Source: Bacteroidales bacterium
GTDB lineage: Bacteria > Bacteroidota > Bacteroidia > Bacteroidales > M50B96
Assembly: GCA_018401015.1 (NCBI GenBank)
Contig: JAGYLP010000012.1
Span: forward strand, 1-55,693
DNA: 55,693 nt
Reading direction: 5' to 3'
The notes beneath the pieces were generated by a model that ran no database searches, was not told the origin of the DNA, and worked only from the letters and a program-made list of their open reading frames with translations. Shown here one piece after another: positions 1 to 5,748 of this stretch (its first letter is position 1; each line of letters begins with the position of its first letter). The position numbers were made by a program, and so were the translations under genes.

Positions 1-376
1 CAACGGTGGAACAGATGGTTCGATCGATGTAAGTGTTTCCGGCGGAACAGCTCCTTACACTTTCGTTTGGACGAATAACGAAACCAGCGAAGATCTATCC
101 ACCTTAGCTGCTGGAACTTATTCTCTTACGGTGACCGATGCCAACAACTGCGTCTTCACAGCCAGCTACGAAATCACCGAACCTGCCGCCTTGATCGCTT
201 CTGCCGATGTGCTGAACGTATTGTGCAACGGCGGAACGGATGGTTCGATCGATGTAAGTGTTTCCGGCGGAACAGCACCGTATGCTTTTGTTTGGTCGAA
301 TAACGAAACCAGCGAAGATGTATCAGCCTTAAGTGCAGGAACTTATTCTCTTACGGTGACCGACGCCAACAACTGC
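1..376 (+). repeat. Near-identical 225-bp tandem coding repeats
   Basis: Bases 1-151 and 226-376 match almost perfectly at DNA level, including long identical runs such as the one beginning at 14 and 239. The period is 225 bp, or 75 codons. Later repeat units in the same gene are much more diverged. High DNA identity suggests recent duplication or gene conversion within the adhesin repeat region. The array continues beyond the left edge. Confidence 0.85.
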
Positions 377-2854
377 GAATATCTGTTTGATTATGACGTT
401 GAAGAGCCCGATATGCTCGTGGCTACTTATACCAGCCTACCGGTATCTTGTTTTGGAGGAATCGATGGAAGCATCGATGTAATGGTGAATGGAGGAACTC
501 AGCCTTATGCTTACTCATGGTCCAATGGAGAAACATCGGAGGATCTGAATTCTTTGAGTGCTAGTGTATATGAATTAAGTGTAGTTGATATAAATGGCTG
601 TTCAACCTTGTTAGCCATTTCCGTGGAGGAACCAACTGCCTTGTCGGCACAAGAAACCATAGAAATGATTTCTTGCTTTGGATTGACCGACGGATCTATT
701 TCGATACAGGCTACCGGAGGGATTGCACCTTATTTTATTAGTTGGAATACGGGTTCAAGCAATTTCAGTCTGGAAAGTTTAGAGGCAGGAAACTACACTT
801 ACACCTTGACTGATGCGAATGGTTGTAGTGTTGAAAATGCGTTGCTCGTTGAAGAGCCCGCGTTGTTAAGTATGAATGTGATTCAGGAAAATGTGAGTTG
901 CTTTGGTGCTGCCGATGGATTTATCTCCTTGAGTGGTCAGGGAGGAACAGCTCCTTATTTCTATGTTTGGAATAATGGTTTGAATGTGAACGAACGTTCA
1001 AACTTAAATCCCGGGAATTACTCAGCCACAGTTACCGATTCAAATGGTTGTATTTATAGTGTGGCGGTAAGTCTTACTCAGCCAGCCAATATTCAGATTA
1101 CAAGCGATGTTACTCCTGTAAGTGTATTTGGTGGAAGCGATGGTTCTATTAGTGTCAGTGTATCAGGCGGTGTATCGCCCTATAGCTACTTCTGGTCGAA
1201 TAGTGCTACAACGGCTGGTATTGATCAACTGACAGCAGGAATTTACACCTTAACTGTAATTGATGCTGTGAGTTGTGAGAAAGAAATTTCGGTCGAAGTA
1301 TCGGAACCAACCGGAGCTCCTGATTGGGTGGTTGAGAACACTGGTTTGATTCATCAAATGATTGTTCCATCCGGAATACCTGTCTCGATTGATGGAGTAT
1401 CCTTAGTGAACGGCGATTATCTAGGAGTTTTCTATGAAGAGCAAGGAACATGGTTTTGTGGAGGTTTTATTCAGTATCAAACTGCTCAGACCGATACTTT
1501 CCCCATTTATGGTGCTCAGTCTGGCTTGAACAATGGATTTGAGGAAAACGAAGCTTTTGTTTGGAAGGTTTGGAAGTTAGCCGAAGACGCTGAATATTTT
1601 GTAGCAGCTGAATATGCAGCGATTAATATGCCCGATATTACCCATCAGGGCGAGTTTGCAGTTGGTGGTATATCTGCCTTACAATCGATTAGCACCAATT
1701 TCCAATCGACCTTGAGTTTTACTTTACTTTCGAATTGGAACATTGTTTCTATTAATGTTTTACCGCAAGACTTTAGTTTGCCTTACGTATTATCATCGGT
1801 TGCATCGAACATCGAATTGATGAAAGATGAAACAGGTGCTGTTTACTGGCCGGCCTTCTCTATTAATTTCATTGGTGAGTGGGAGTTAGAAGAAGGTTAT
1901 CAGTTGAAAATGATCCAAAGTGATGTCTTTACATTGACTGGTTCGGTATTTAACCCGGATACACTCGATATATCGATTCCGACAGGTTGGAGCATGATTT
2001 CCTACCCGCGTCTGGAGCCGGCACCCATCGCCGATATGCTGCAGCCAATAGCTTCGGATATCATTATAGTTAAGAACCAACTTGGTTTGGTCTATTGGCC
2101 AAGCTTCAACCTGGACAATATTGGCAATATGATTCCCGGTCAAGGTTATCAAATTAATTGTTCAGCATCCAACGTGATTCAATTCCCTGCGAATGATGAA
2201 TTATTTGCTAAAAGCTATGTGCATCAGCCTCTATTTGAGATTCTCGCAGAGCCTGTTCGCACCGATGGCAACATGACCCTTGCTATTGAGCGCGATGCCT
2301 GGGAGATTCATCCTTCTATTGGTGCTGAAATAGCTGTTGTCGATCCTCAGGGTGTACTTGTTGGTCGTGCCAAATTTGATGGTGAAACCTTGGCTTTTCC
2401 TGTTTGGGGCGACGATGAGACCAGTTCTGAGAAAGATGGCTTGTATGCCGGAGAAAGCTTTCACCTGGAAGTATATGAATCCAATCATGCTGAGCCTTTA
2501 ATCTATTTCATCCAGGATTGGAAGGAAGGAAATGGTACTTATCGGACCAATTCTATTCAGATTGCCTCTTTGGTAACAAAGCAAAGCAACGAAGCATTTG
2601 AGGTGTCTGTTAGTGCCTATCCAAATCCGGCTAGCCACGTGGTTCAGTTGGAGGTAAGCTTGAATGAAGCTACCCATTGTCAGATTCGTTTGCTCAATGC
2701 CATTGGAGCTGAAGTGATGTCGGTTTGGAATGGTGAAATAAGCTCAGAATCGCACGTATTTACGGTTGATGTTAGTCAATTAGAAGCCGGTATGTATTTC
2801 TATCAAGTTCAAACCGAGCGTGAAAAACTCGTGCGACCCTTAATGGTAGAATAG
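2..2854 (+). CDS. SprB-repeat adhesin-like surface protein with T9SS sorting domain (5' truncated)
   Basis: The reading frame is open from the left edge, so the true start lies outside the window; the first internal start codon (GTG at 131) falls inside a repeat and is not the start. The first 430 or so residues are about six SprB-type repeats of roughly 75 residues, each with a CxGGxDGSI core, an APYxxxWS segment and an LTVTDxNxC end. A middle region without repeats follows. The last 75 or so residues form a T9SS type A sorting domain, with a YPNPAS start and a GMYFYQVQ segment. By family knowledge such proteins cross the outer membrane through the type IX system and stay on the surface or are released; SprB itself is the gliding adhesin. 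The adhesin role here is inferred. A strong terminator follows. Confidence 0.9.
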   Translation, partial: NGGTDGSIDVSVSGGTAPYTFVWTNNETSEDLSTLAAGTYSLTVTDANNCVFTASYEITEPAALIASADVLNVLCNGGTDGSIDVSVSGGTAPYAFVWSNNETSEDVSALSAGTYSLTVTDANNCEYLFDYDVEEPDMLVATYTSLPVSCFGGIDGSIDVMVNGGTQPYAYSWSNGETSEDLNSLSASVYELSVVDINGCSTLLAISVEEPTALSAQETIEMISCFGLTDGSISIQATGGIAPYFISWNTGSSNFSLESLEAGNYTYTLTDANGCSVENALLVEEPALLSMNVIQENVSCFGAADGFISLSGQGGTAPYFYVWNNGLNVNERSNLNPGNYSATVTDSNGCIYSVAVSLTQPANIQITSDVTPVSVFGGSDGSISVSVSGGVSPYSYFWSNSATTAGIDQLTAGIYTLTVIDAVSCEKEISVEVSEPTGAPDWVVENTGLIHQMIVPSGIPVSIDGVSLVNGDYLGVFYEEQGTWFCGGFIQYQTAQTDTFPIYGAQSGLNNGFEENEAFVWKVWKLAEDAEYFVAAEYAAINMPDITHQGEFAVGGISALQSISTNFQSTLSFTLLSNWNIVSINVLPQDFSLPYVLSSVASNIELMKDETGAVYWPAFSINFIGEWELEEGYQLKMIQSDVFTLTGSVFNPDTLDISIPTGWSMISYPRLEPAPIADMLQPIASDIIIVKNQLGLVYWPSFNLDNIGNMIPGQGYQINCSASNVIQFPANDELFAKSYVHQPLFEILAEPVRTDGNMTLAIERDAWEIHPSIGAEIAVVDPQGVLVGRAKFDGETLAFPVWGDDETSSEKDGLYAGESFHLEVYESNHAEPLIYFIQDWKEGNGTYRTNSIQIASLVTKQSNEAFEVSVSAYPNPASHVVQLEVSLNEATHCQIRLLNAIGAEVMSVWNGEISSESHVFTVDVSQLEAGMYFYQVQTEREKLVRPLMVE

Positions 2855-2942: not shown

Positions 2943-2976
2943 GCGCAAGTTCTTAAGGAGTTAGTTGTCCAATAAA
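2943..2976 (+). promoter_or_regulatory. ECF-type promoter-like element, copy 1 (before the sigma factor gene)
   Basis: GCGCAAGTT (2943-2951), a 14-base spacer, then TGTC (2966-2969) followed by an ATAAA tail. The same arrangement recurs at 3553-3586 with identical spacing. The GCAAG-like upstream box and TGTC-like downstream box resemble ECF sigma promoters, so autoregulation is the natural guess. The downstream box overlaps the TTG at 2965, which argues against TTG as start codon and for the ATG at 2989. Confidence 0.55.
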
Positions 2977-2988
2977 AGAGTTAAAATA

Positions 2989-3537
2989 ATGTGTGTGGAC
3001 AAAAAAGAGATTGAATTATTTAATCAGCGCGATCCTCGGTTCTTTCGGGAATTAGTCGATCGGTACCAGGTGAGCATTTTGAATGTTTGTTTGGCTTATA
3101 CGCATAATCGCGATGAGGCAAGCGACTTGACTCAAGAAGTGTTTATTCAGGCTTTTCGTTCGGCCTCTGAATTTAGGGGCGACTCAAGCATTAAAACCTG
3201 GTTGACCCGGATAGCTATTCATAAGAGCTTGAACTTTCTTCGTAAATCGAAACGCATCACAAGCACTGAGCTCAACGAAGCAAATCATTCTTCCTTCTCA
3301 TCCGATTCAAGCGATATACAATTATTACAATCCGAGCAAAAGAAGTGGTTTTATCGGGCACTCGACGCTTTGCCTGAAAAGCAACGCGAAGCATTTATCC
3401 TACATAAATTGGAAGAAAACTCGTATCAGGAGGTAGCCGAGATTATGGGAACGAGTGTTTCTGCGGTTGAGTCCTTAATGCATCGTGCAAAAGTTAATTT
3501 ACGAGCCTTACTTGAAAAAGTTGTAGATCGAGGATAA
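2989..3537 (+). CDS. RNA polymerase sigma-70 factor, ECF subfamily
   Basis: A 182-residue ECF sigma factor. Region 2 covers about residues 15-85 and includes the DLTQEVFIQAF core recognition segment. Region 4 covers about 120-175, with LPEKQREAFILHKLEE and a helix-turn-helix ending in SVSAVESLMHRAK. It would direct RNA polymerase to a small regulon when released from its anti-sigma factor. I chose the ATG at 2989; a TTG at 2965 would add eight residues but lies on a promoter-like box. The next genes are a putative anti-sigma factor and a Spy/CpxP-like protein, a common arrangement in envelope or metal stress modules. Target genes are unknown, though the duplicated element suggests it controls its own cluster. 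Confidence 0.93.
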   Translation: MCVDKKEIELFNQRDPRFFRELVDRYQVSILNVCLAYTHNRDEASDLTQEVFIQAFRSASEFRGDSSIKTWLTRIAIHKSLNFLRKSKRITSTELNEANHSSFSSDSSDIQLLQSEQKKWFYRALDALPEKQREAFILHKLEENSYQEVAEIMGTSVSAVESLMHRAKVNLRALLEKVVDRG

Positions 3538-3552
3538 AAAAATGGTTATCCC

Positions 3553-3586
3553 GCGCAAGTTTTTAAAAAAAGCAGTGTCAGATAAA
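3553..3586 (+). promoter_or_regulatory. ECF-type promoter-like element, copy 2 (before the anti-sigma gene)
   Basis: GCGCAAGTT (3553-3561), a 14-base spacer, TGTC (3576-3579) and an ATAAA tail, matching the element at 2943 box for box. It sits between the sigma stop (3537) and the anti-sigma ATG (3642). This would give the anti-sigma and following genes their own sigma-dependent promoter. Confidence 0.55.
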
Positions 3587-3641
3587 CAGATGCGCCGCTA
3601 CAAAGAGTTAATCGCATCAGCAAGCAAGAAAAGATGAAACG

Positions 3642-4112
3642 ATGAAATGCAGTGAAGTAAAATATCAGCTAATAGAGGGATGGGAATCCTTATCTGAACA
3701 GAGTAAGCAGCACTTAGAGCTTCATTTAGATCGTTGCTCTGAGTGCGCTTCTTTCGCCCAAAAAATGAATTCCTTTTATCAGTTTCATGCAAGGGAACGA
3801 GTCCAGGAGCTTATCCCGGGTTTAACCGAACAAATTATGGCCGAAGTAGCCCAAATAAGCGTTGAAGAAAACAAGCAATTTTCAGTGGGTTCTGAGCTAT
3901 CGGTTGAATCGGCCAAAAAACCAATTAAGCTGTTTCAGTATTTTCCCTATGCGGCAGCAGTGGTACTCGGCATTGGATTAAGTTGGCTCATAAGCATGGG
4001 GCTAGGACCTGTTACGGTTTCTGACTCCGATTCGGATTTATTACAATCCTATTTGAGTGTGACGGAAACTCACTTCGAGTGCATCGACGAAACCATTTTC
4101 GAAGGCTTATAA
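3642..4112 (+). CDS. Putative zinc-finger anti-sigma factor
   Basis: A 156-residue protein. Its N-terminal 45 or so residues contain the HxxxCxxC signature (HLDRCSEC, about residues 28-35) of zinc-binding anti-sigma domains (zf-HC2/ZAS). A single hydrophobic segment at about 102-120 (YAAAVVLGIGLSWLISMGL) probably anchors it in the inner membrane with a short periplasmic tail. By family knowledge it holds the ECF factor inactive until an envelope signal triggers its release. The gene lies 104 bases after the sigma gene and has its own promoter-like element. The C-terminal part resembles nothing I recognise. The role rests on the motif and the gene order. Confidence 0.8.
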   Translation: MKCSEVKYQLIEGWESLSEQSKQHLELHLDRCSECASFAQKMNSFYQFHARERVQELIPGLTEQIMAEVAQISVEENKQFSVGSELSVESAKKPIKLFQYFPYAAAVVLGIGLSWLISMGLGPVTVSDSDSDLLQSYLSVTETHFECIDETIFEGL

Positions 4113-4150: not shown

Positions 4151-4678
4151 ATGGAAACTTCTAGTACTAATCGGTGGCTTTATTGGATTATAATCTTCCT
4201 GATAGTCACAAACTTATCAACTATTGTGTTGATGTCGCAGCGGAAAGAGCCCATTCCGCCGGGAATTCGCGACAGAGCTCCTATGGAGCAGGGCGATGAA
4301 CAATTGATGAGCCGTGCGCTTCACCGCCGTTTAGGCCTGAGCGATGAGCAGATTGAAAAGGTTAAACCTTTTACCCAAGAGTACAGGGAGCAAGTGCATG
4401 AAATTAAACTTGCATTGAAAGAAGAGCGGGTAAAAATGTTCGATTTGCTAAACGCCAATCCAGTGAATGATAGTGAGCTGGAGTCTGCCACTCAAAGGAT
4501 TGGCAAGCTGCATACACAACTCAAACAAAAAACGGCACGCTACTACCTTGAATTAAAGGCTGAATTAACGCCCAAACAACAAGAGGAATTAGCGTACATG
4601 TTCGACAGGATGGCTCAAAATCAACCCTTCGAACCACGATCCGAAGGTCGGTTCCGGCATCGGAGAGGCAGACCATAA
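4151..4678 (+). CDS. Spy/CpxP-like periplasmic heavy-metal sensor family protein
   Basis: A 175-residue protein with one N-terminal membrane segment (about residues 9-29) followed by a helical, charged periplasmic domain. The region LGLSDEQIEKVKPF and a later LTPKQQEEL match the LTxxQ-type repeats of the Spy/CpxP/CnrX group. Members act as periplasmic chaperones or metal sensors and often regulate a nearby ECF or two-component system. The tail is Arg-rich (RFRHRRGRP). It follows the anti-sigma gene by 38 bases, so the three genes probably form one regulatory unit. The signal could be metal or misfolded protein; the sequence does not decide. Confidence 0.8.
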   Translation: METSSTNRWLYWIIIFLIVTNLSTIVLMSQRKEPIPPGIRDRAPMEQGDEQLMSRALHRRLGLSDEQIEKVKPFTQEYREQVHEIKLALKEERVKMFDLLNANPVNDSELESATQRIGKLHTQLKQKTARYYLELKAELTPKQQEELAYMFDRMAQNQPFEPRSEGRFRHRRGRP

Positions 4679-4772
4679 TCAGTAACAGGATCTTTCGGAA
4701 TTTCAAAAAACTTAGGACACAGTGTCAACCCAAATAGTTCATTTAATTCAAACCAATTCAAAATCAACAACT

Positions 4773-5621
4773 ATGAGAAAAATTCAAATTTGGCTATCTG
4801 CCACAGCAATCTTGTTCGCTTTAAGCGCATGCGACGAAAATGCGAACGAATCTCCGATCCTGACTACTGAAATTCCGGAATTCTCCGTTAAATCTGTTCA
4901 AACGACTTTTGTTCCAACCGATTCCTTATCGACCGATGAACAAGCTGGTTTGTATTTAATGCGCGAAGAAGAATTAGTTGCAAGAGATTTATATGCAGCT
5001 TTTTATGCTGATTTTAATCTCCCAATCTTTAATCGCATATCAGAATCGGAAGATCGTCATACAACCGCCATTTTGGCTCTGATCGATTTCTATCAGTTAC
5101 TCGACCCGGCAACCGGTATTGCAGGTGAGTATAACAATGCCGATTTACAAACACTTTACAACGATTTATATGCCGATGGATCTGTTGGATTGGTCGAAGC
5201 TCTGACCGTTGGAGCTTTGGTTGAAGAGGTCGATATCCTCGATTTGGAGGAATTAATGCTTGCCACTACCAATGAAAACTTACTGGTTGTGTATGATAAC
5301 CTTCTTAGTGGTTCAAAAAATCACCTCAAAGCCTTTGCAAAACAACTGGCGAATAATGGTGTAACCTATGTTCCTGTTGTATTAGACCAACTTGCCTACG
5401 ATGAAATTTTAAGCACTCCTCACCACACCAGCACTCCCGATTGTCTTGGATTAGGCGATGGCACACCTAACGGACCGGGTTATGGTAATGGTCAAGGTAA
5501 CGGACCAGGCAATGGTCAAGGTAATGGCCAAGGAAACGGCCCTGGTAATGGAATGGGTAATGGTCCGGGTCATGGAAATGGCGATGGCGTTTGCGATAGC
5601 ACGGCTGTAGCTGGCTCCTAA
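4773..5621 (+). CDS. DUF2202 (ferritin-like) lipoprotein with Gly/Asn-rich tail
   Basis: About 282 residues. An upstream in-frame start at 4722 exists, but the ATG at 4773 gives a clean lipoprotein signal (hydrophobic stretch, then LSAC), so I chose it. The next part (about residues 50-210) matches DUF2202: LYLMREEELVARDLY, then SEDRHTTAI, then paired helices, a ferritin-like fold whose Glu/His pattern could hold metal. The C-terminal 45 or so residues are a GN/GP/GQ low-complexity tract encoded by imperfect DNA repeats (about 5470-5590). It follows the Spy-like gene by about 95 bases and could be a target of the ECF factor. Its biochemical function is unknown. Confidence 0.8.
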   Translation: MRKIQIWLSATAILFALSACDENANESPILTTEIPEFSVKSVQTTFVPTDSLSTDEQAGLYLMREEELVARDLYAAFYADFNLPIFNRISESEDRHTTAILALIDFYQLLDPATGIAGEYNNADLQTLYNDLYADGSVGLVEALTVGALVEEVDILDLEELMLATTNENLLVVYDNLLSGSKNHLKAFAKQLANNGVTYVPVVLDQLAYDEILSTPHHTSTPDCLGLGDGTPNGPGYGNGQGNGPGNGQGNGQGNGPGNGMGNGPGHGNGDGVCDSTAVAGS

Positions 5622-5720
5622 AAAAAAGTAATACGAAACATCAATGTCCACACAAATCAAACTCAACAATTAAGCAATCTTTAATCTCAATCAGAATTAG
5701 TTAGTATGATGTTTCGCGAA

Positions 5721-5748
5721 AGGCGCTCTGAATGGAGCGCCTTTTTTT
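5721..5748 (+). terminator. Rho-independent terminator after the DUF2202 gene
   Basis: AGGCGCTC (5721-5728), a 6-base loop, GAGCGCCT (5735-5742), then a T tract to 5748. It lies 100 bases after the stop and ends the stress cluster. Confidence 0.92.

Follow-up and report, generated by a model that had tools for sequence, protein, structure and literature searches.

We analysed a stretch of 55,693 nucleotides from a Bacteroidales bacterium (contig JAGYLP010000012.1; hereafter the window), in which two matching promoter-like elements, P1 and P2, stand before and behind a gene for an extracytoplasmic function (ECF) sigma factor. We concluded that P1 and P2 are very probably two promoters of the sigma factor encoded between them: P1 would serve autoregulation of the sigma gene, and P2, which lies ahead of the likely anti-sigma gene, would act as a brake. 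The promoter reading is well supported by the comparison of related loci, and we further infer the activity of the promoters, the extent of the operon and the brake. The features on which the argument turns are as follows.

2943 to 2976, + strand: P1, predicted promoter of the sigma gene, GCGCAAGTT-N14-TGTC-N2-ATAAA
2989 to 3537, + strand: ECF sigma factor gene, 182 amino acids, ATG start; residue N82; region 4.2 helix SVSAVESLMHRAK
3553 to 3586, + strand: P2, predicted second promoter, 5' of the anti-sigma gene, GCGCAAGTT-N14-TGTC-N2-ATAAA
3642 to 4112, + strand: likely anti-sigma factor gene, 156 amino acids; Hx3Cx2C (HLDRCSEC), one hydrophobic stretch, position

Two matched elements and their chance level

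In P1, the first box (GCGCAAGTT, 2943–2951) is followed by 14 spacer bases, TGTC (2966–2969), CA and ATAAA; in P2, the same box (3553–3561) is followed by 14 bases, TGTC (3576–3579), AG and ATAAA. The elements are identical at 23 of 34 positions overall and at 5 of 14 within the spacer. A first-pass annotation of this DNA had reported twin boxes with an equal 14-base spacer at these coordinates, and both elements were found exactly there. Its description of the spacers as divergent held for most positions, but because 5 of the 14 are identical, including a TTAA right behind the first box of both elements, the spacers are not wholly different. A run of T at this place is frequent in relatives.

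The pattern GCAAGTT-N13..16-TGTC occurred twice in the window versus 0.11 expected, and two copies were reached in 2 of 100 shuffles. The whole genome (2.88 million bases) held four copies of GCAAGTT-N14-TGTC and none of a reversed-pattern control; the two copies other than P1 and P2 lie inside open frames, one (L003) in a 110-codon frame and the other (L004) in two frames, 437 and 217 codons long. Looser versions stood at chance level: with two mismatches, the GCAAGTT-N14-TGTC-type pattern gave 662 matches in the bacterium’s own genome versus 734 for the control, CAAGTT-N13..15-TGTC gave 16 versus 15, and CAAGTTTT-N11..13-TGTC across 60 genomes gave 164 versus 162. The pattern alone is therefore no finder of regulons.

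A leave-one-locus-out matrix, from which the window’s locus was excluded, scored P1 at 20.2 bits and P2 at 28.6 bits; the 99% level of the shuffles was 4.6 bits and the top of 710 shuffles reached 10.5 bits. A genome sequence model of 36 positions (42 sites, two of them the window’s own) ranked P2 first in the own genome (24.8 bits, E 8.6e-5) and P1 second (18.9 bits), with the next site at 12.7 bits, among the 150 of 1971 first-look candidates that were scored.

Recurrence at related sigma loci

The comparison covered 71 sigma loci, window included. A 149-genome sigma search, in which 50 genomes (the window’s own among them) matched at E <= 1e-25, supplied 57 of these in three batches (30 + 20 + 7), and another search supplied 14 of its 52 loci; the remaining 38, mostly from other phyla and including L050, which was given a first look only, are outside the element counts. 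Counts out of 71 include the window, and counts out of 70 are of relatives only. Gene starts in the relatives were chosen by script, and some doubtful ones (e.g. L095, L105, L108) were kept unchanged. The sigma factor is 30–48% identical to those of the relatives.

By a strict pattern, which the window’s own P1 does not fit, elements were found upstream of sigma at 18 loci, between sigma and the next gene at 21, and at both places at 11, window included. With the left-out matrix at the 1% shuffle level, the corresponding numbers among the 70 relatives were 33, 39 and 28, or 34, 40 and 29 of 71 with the window. Comparing the upstream regions of related sigma genes had been proposed in the first-pass annotation, and the elements do recur at both places, in 28 of 70 relatives. 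The relatives’ consensus is CGCAAGTTTTT-N~11-kTGTCWAA. Columns that were independent of the search are conserved as well: C at −2 (33/37) and G at −1 (29/37) before CAAG, and A as the third base after TGTC (31/37). The gap element begins 42–48 bases 5' of the next gene’s ATG in 14 of the 20 relatives with a strict site. At three loci (L036, L037 and L040, one labelled Chitinophagaceae) an AAGG...CGTC element stands before the second gene.

Likeness of the two regions within a locus

Loci that lack the canonical element often carry another box pair at both places; for example, TAGGAAA...TGTCTAA is present upstream of both sigma and the next gene at L038, L039, L104, L123 and L128. We compared the two regions of each locus with a motif-blind two-box match at 68 loci; these include the window and leave out L043 (by hand) as well as L035 and L082, for which no next gene was found. 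Results showed a summed match of 1117.2 versus 1006.1 ± 11.7 when regions were re-paired among loci, a value that none of 20000 re-pairings reached. The 23 loci without a canonical element gave the same picture on their own (367.8 versus 329.7 ± 7.1, 0/20000). When the upstream sequence was shuffled, the mean match was 13.95 ± 0.13, versus 16.43 for the real sequence, and over the box spacings tried (6–19) the match peaked at 12–13.

Both boxes could be called in both regions at 28 loci, by a caller that missed the window’s P2 and miscalled the downstream element of L120, counts being left as such. The first box was the same in 23 of these (12.4 expected, 0/20000), and the second in 25 (19.2 expected, 1/20000).

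Box type and the residues of the sigma factor

Residue 82 of the sigma factor aligns with the N of TAKN in Escherichia coli sigma-E, which we take to be N84 in that protein’s numbering. Second boxes among the relatives vary (CGTC, CATC, TTTC), and their type goes with the residue: N goes with a T-type second box and D with a C-type one at 48 of 48 loci. Counted by element, upstream sites were 28 T and 0 C where the residue is N and 0 T and 3 C where it is D; downstream sites were 33 T and 1 C with N, and 1 T and 8 C with D. For the first box, the helices xEGAxEQLL and xEGAVEALI went with TAGG at all 8 called loci. These matches lend support, though not proof, to the view that box type follows the DNA-reading residues of the sigma factor.

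Points against the promoter reading and alternative explanations

Several observations weigh against reading P1 and P2 as two promoters of one sigma factor. The genome model that ranked them was built with P1 and P2 among its 42 rows. Neither canonical element was found at 26 of 71 loci, and at L036, L037 and L040 only the second was found, with none before sigma. In the window, 86 bases separate P2 from the anti-sigma ATG, and a 31-codon open frame encloses the element. As first box the window has CAAG (with TGTC as second box) and not the AAC of the early textbook AAC/CGT pair; according to the portion of PMC8103513 available to us, AAC (−35) and CGT (−10) were early ECF boxes that later dropped out of the definition. 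An AGG-type first box also occurs at six loci whose sigma factor lacks the E-type helix. The N/D and T/C changes each take two steps on the tree, with one independent pair on supported branches and two on all branches, so that the residue–box link counts as one or two independent observations. Many loci have one motif in common, and in the motif-blind test an upstream region accordingly singled out its own partner as best in only 4 of 68 loci, where 1 was expected. Lastly, the permutation and Fisher tests count loci and ignore kinship, so their counts are not independent events.

The strongest alternative is that P1 and P2 are binding sites of another regulator, a repressor or activator of both transcripts. 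Two conserved half-boxes at a fixed spacer could also form such a site. Against this, the box type tracks residues of the sigma factor encoded next to it, and an A-rich stretch comes after the second box, with a start codon at a set distance in 14 of 20 relatives; we regard this explanation as improbable.

A second alternative takes P1 as the sole promoter and the P2 stretch as coding sequence, like P1 by chance or through an old duplication. The frame concerned is:

3542 to 3637, + strand: 31-codon open frame containing P2; basic peptide

It starts 4 bases past the sigma stop and ends 4 bases ahead of the anti-sigma start, as a gene in a coupled operon might. The element, however, is kept where the frame is not: an ATG-led frame in the same phase runs through the element in 1 of the 18 relatives with a gap element (L099), as judged in the relatives on hand, close relatives being absent from these. 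Short frames in 11 relatives with long or odd gaps bear no likeness to it, and the peptide matched no Pfam or NCBIfam family. A conserved small gene at this place is improbable on these relatives and was rejected, and we regard this alternative as highly improbable. Finally, although loose versions of the pattern stand at chance level genome-wide, chance similarity of P1 and P2 was rejected and is given almost no weight, in view of the exact double match, the scores from the left-out matrix and the return of both elements at matching places in relatives.

We therefore keep the reading of two promoters for one sigma factor, which the first-pass annotation had offered. The elements, their recurrence at both places (28 of 70 relatives), the likeness within loci with its agreement of boxes and single best spacing, and the pairing of box types with sigma residues (one or two independent changes) are all direct observations.

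The sigma operon and a proposed circuit

The protein encoded at 2989–3537 matches Sigma70_r2 (1e-16) and Sigma70_r4_2 (5.9e-19) in Pfam (PF04542 and PF08281/PF04545) and the sigma70-ECF family TIGR02937 in NCBIfam (109.3 bits, cutoff 42.9). It has only the region 2 and region 4 domains, as ECF (group IV) sigma factors do. Its score for Sig70_bacteroi1, 108.8 bits, is under the cutoff of 126.4. Among 21 Protein Data Bank sequences the best matches were 6in7 and 8z6g, with the sigma-E chains 1or7 and 6jbq also among the best and the CnrH chain 4cxf matching at 8e-10. A candidate TTG start at 2965 overlaps the TGTC box of P1 and would precede the transcription start, which leaves the ATG at 2989 as the predicted sigma start, with a leader of about 10–14 bases. 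The earlier suggestion that P1 decides the sigma start thus appears reasonable.

We read the product of 3642–4112 as a likely anti-sigma factor because of its Hx3Cx2C motif and hydrophobic stretch, both recognised by eye, and its position. Its family matches are weak and under the cut-offs (NCBIfam antisigma 2.5e-5, zf-HC2 0.12), and as a query at E <= 1e-5 it matched nothing besides itself in 60 genomes. Downstream of it lie:

4151 to 4678, + strand: Metal_resist / CpxP-Spy-like protein (PF13801, 1.5e-12); N-terminal hydrophobic stretch
4773 to 5621, + strand: DUF2202 protein (PF09968, 2.7e-46), encoded at the end of the putative operon
5718 to 5745, + strand: terminator-like hairpin behind DUF2202, where the operon may end (hairpin search)

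In the 17 of 21 relatives listed for this test, the gene after the anti-sigma gene belongs to the Metal_resist family in 14 (E <= 1e-3), and in 11 above the Pfam cut-off. At its C-terminus the DUF2202 protein has a repeat tail rich in Gly, Asn and Gln (GNGQGNGPGN...; window 5470–5590). A weaker box had been proposed ahead of its gene: the string AGTGTCA is present at 4721–4727, but it did not stand as an element. The best score between 4600 and 4790 was −15.3 bits, scanning the window with the full model (E up to 10) gave nothing on the + strand ahead of the gene, and a separate box for DUF2202 is not supported on these grounds. The DUF2202 gene at L129 likewise has no element within 150 bases upstream. 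The hairpin is only suggestive of an operon end, the search having returned 5 terminator-like sites versus 3.4 in shuffles.

Just upstream of the sigma locus (window 131–2854) is a large protein with DGSIDVSVSGGTAPY-type repeats, adhesin-like by eye. A hairpin at 2883–2914 was listed on the − strand; by eye, a run of T stands behind it on the + strand.

In the circuit that we propose, both promoters would be active and the same sigma factor would read P1 and P2. Once released from the anti-sigma factor, sigma would transcribe its own gene from P1 in a positive feedback, and this transcript would read through into the rest of the operon. Additional messenger, made by sigma from P2, would start at the anti-sigma gene and extend into the Metal_resist and DUF2202 genes. 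The inhibitor and the effectors would thereby be raised more than sigma itself, and the balance would tilt toward them as activity rises. This would be expected to hold the positive loop in check and to end the response rapidly.

Possible targets beyond the operon

We searched 12 relatives with the model. The best site lay at the sigma locus in 11, the sites being largely the model’s own rows; in G085 it lay ahead of another gene. That gene and its counterparts in G013, G130 and G053 encode, or resemble, a protein with CarboxypepD_reg, Plug and OMP_b-brl_3 domains, and a search of 20 genomes found relatives of this outer-membrane receptor-like gene in 18. Upstream stretches of at most 200 bases were scanned at 30 of 32 places (for L240 the stretch was cut to 33 bases, and the start of L242 is misplaced). 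Scores above 20 were obtained in 8 of the 18 genomes (G053, G042, G085, G105, G064, G027, G013 and G140), the top of 1200 shuffles being 12.9. In G130 and G072 an element was found further upstream, by eye and by model match. We regard the receptor-like gene as a candidate regulon member in relatives. The element precedes it at loci L208, L213, L217, L218, L229–L231, L233, L237, L241, L243 and L249.

The window genome’s own copy (L238, G000:C28) has no element in 200 bases by score (−7.8) or 420 bases by eye; therefore the regulon in this organism may be the operon alone. A genome scan for hits upstream of envelope genes had been suggested as a check on the motif. No wider regulon emerged in the own genome, but the motif does precede an envelope gene in several relatives. 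One further model site, at L223 (G064:C99), falls across the start of a frame that weakly matches the DUF5777 membrane-barrel family; this frame is perhaps another envelope target.

Comparison with known systems and significance

In E. coli, rseA has a sigma-E promoter of its own. CnrYXH of Cupriavidus metallidurans serves a metal response, and its cluster includes a Metal_resist-family periplasmic protein. The locus resembles CnrYXH in having an ECF sigma factor, a likely anti-sigma factor and a Metal_resist protein in one cluster. It differs in that its likely anti-sigma protein carries, by eye, the class I zinc motif Hx3Cx2C, as PMC7406223 gives that motif, whereas CnrY is class II in the same paper. 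The locus is like rpoE-rseABC of E. coli in that an ECF sigma gene adjoins its anti-sigma gene (a likely one here) and has an autoregulated promoter (predicted here), but the first box is AAC-type there and CAAG-type here, as far as the consulted part of PMC8103513 describes it; the same part puts the share of autoregulated ECFs at about 55%.

The closest arrangement at the anti-sigma gene is that of Corynebacterium glutamicum. There, according to PMC3489674, housekeeping promoters give a joint transcript of sigH and rshA, and rshA by itself is driven by a further promoter under SigH control. The likeness is a sigma-type element directly 5' of the anti-sigma gene, in the window (3553–3586) and in 39 of 70 relatives; unlike sigH, the sigma gene here also has a sigma-type element. 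C. glutamicum belongs to a different phylum, and the systems are likened by arrangement. The SM6 promoters of Flavobacterium psychrophilum include one at an ECF sigma/anti-sigma pair (in the portion of PMC9723704 consulted); one promoter is listed there and two elements are present here, the likeness again being one of arrangement. In the open-licence literature searched we did not find the matched promoter pair in Bacteroidota, the breadth of its conservation or its CAAG-type boxes described. Reading of an anti-sigma promoter by the cognate sigma factor is already known from C. glutamicum; the wide conservation of the matched pair appears to be new.

On balance, it seems that an ECF family of Bacteroidota has kept a promoter pair, one promoter for sigma and one for the anti-sigma factor with envelope effectors, across order-level distances, both promoters changing with the DNA-reading residues of the sigma factor. 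If so, nature has provided with these loci a series of sigma factors and promoters that match (CGCAAG/TGTC, CGTAGG/TGTC, CGAAGG/CGTC, CGCAAG/CATC), which could yield a specificity code with a CAAG-type, not an AAC-type, first box. ECF circuits are usually drawn with a single autoregulated promoter and a fixed ratio of sigma to anti-sigma; a conserved second promoter at the anti-sigma gene would make this ratio depend on sigma activity, and so serve as a brake. The sigma group is represented here mostly by genomes of uncultured organisms; for it, target boxes would be gained, together with a first guess at the regulon: the outer-membrane receptor-like gene in relatives.
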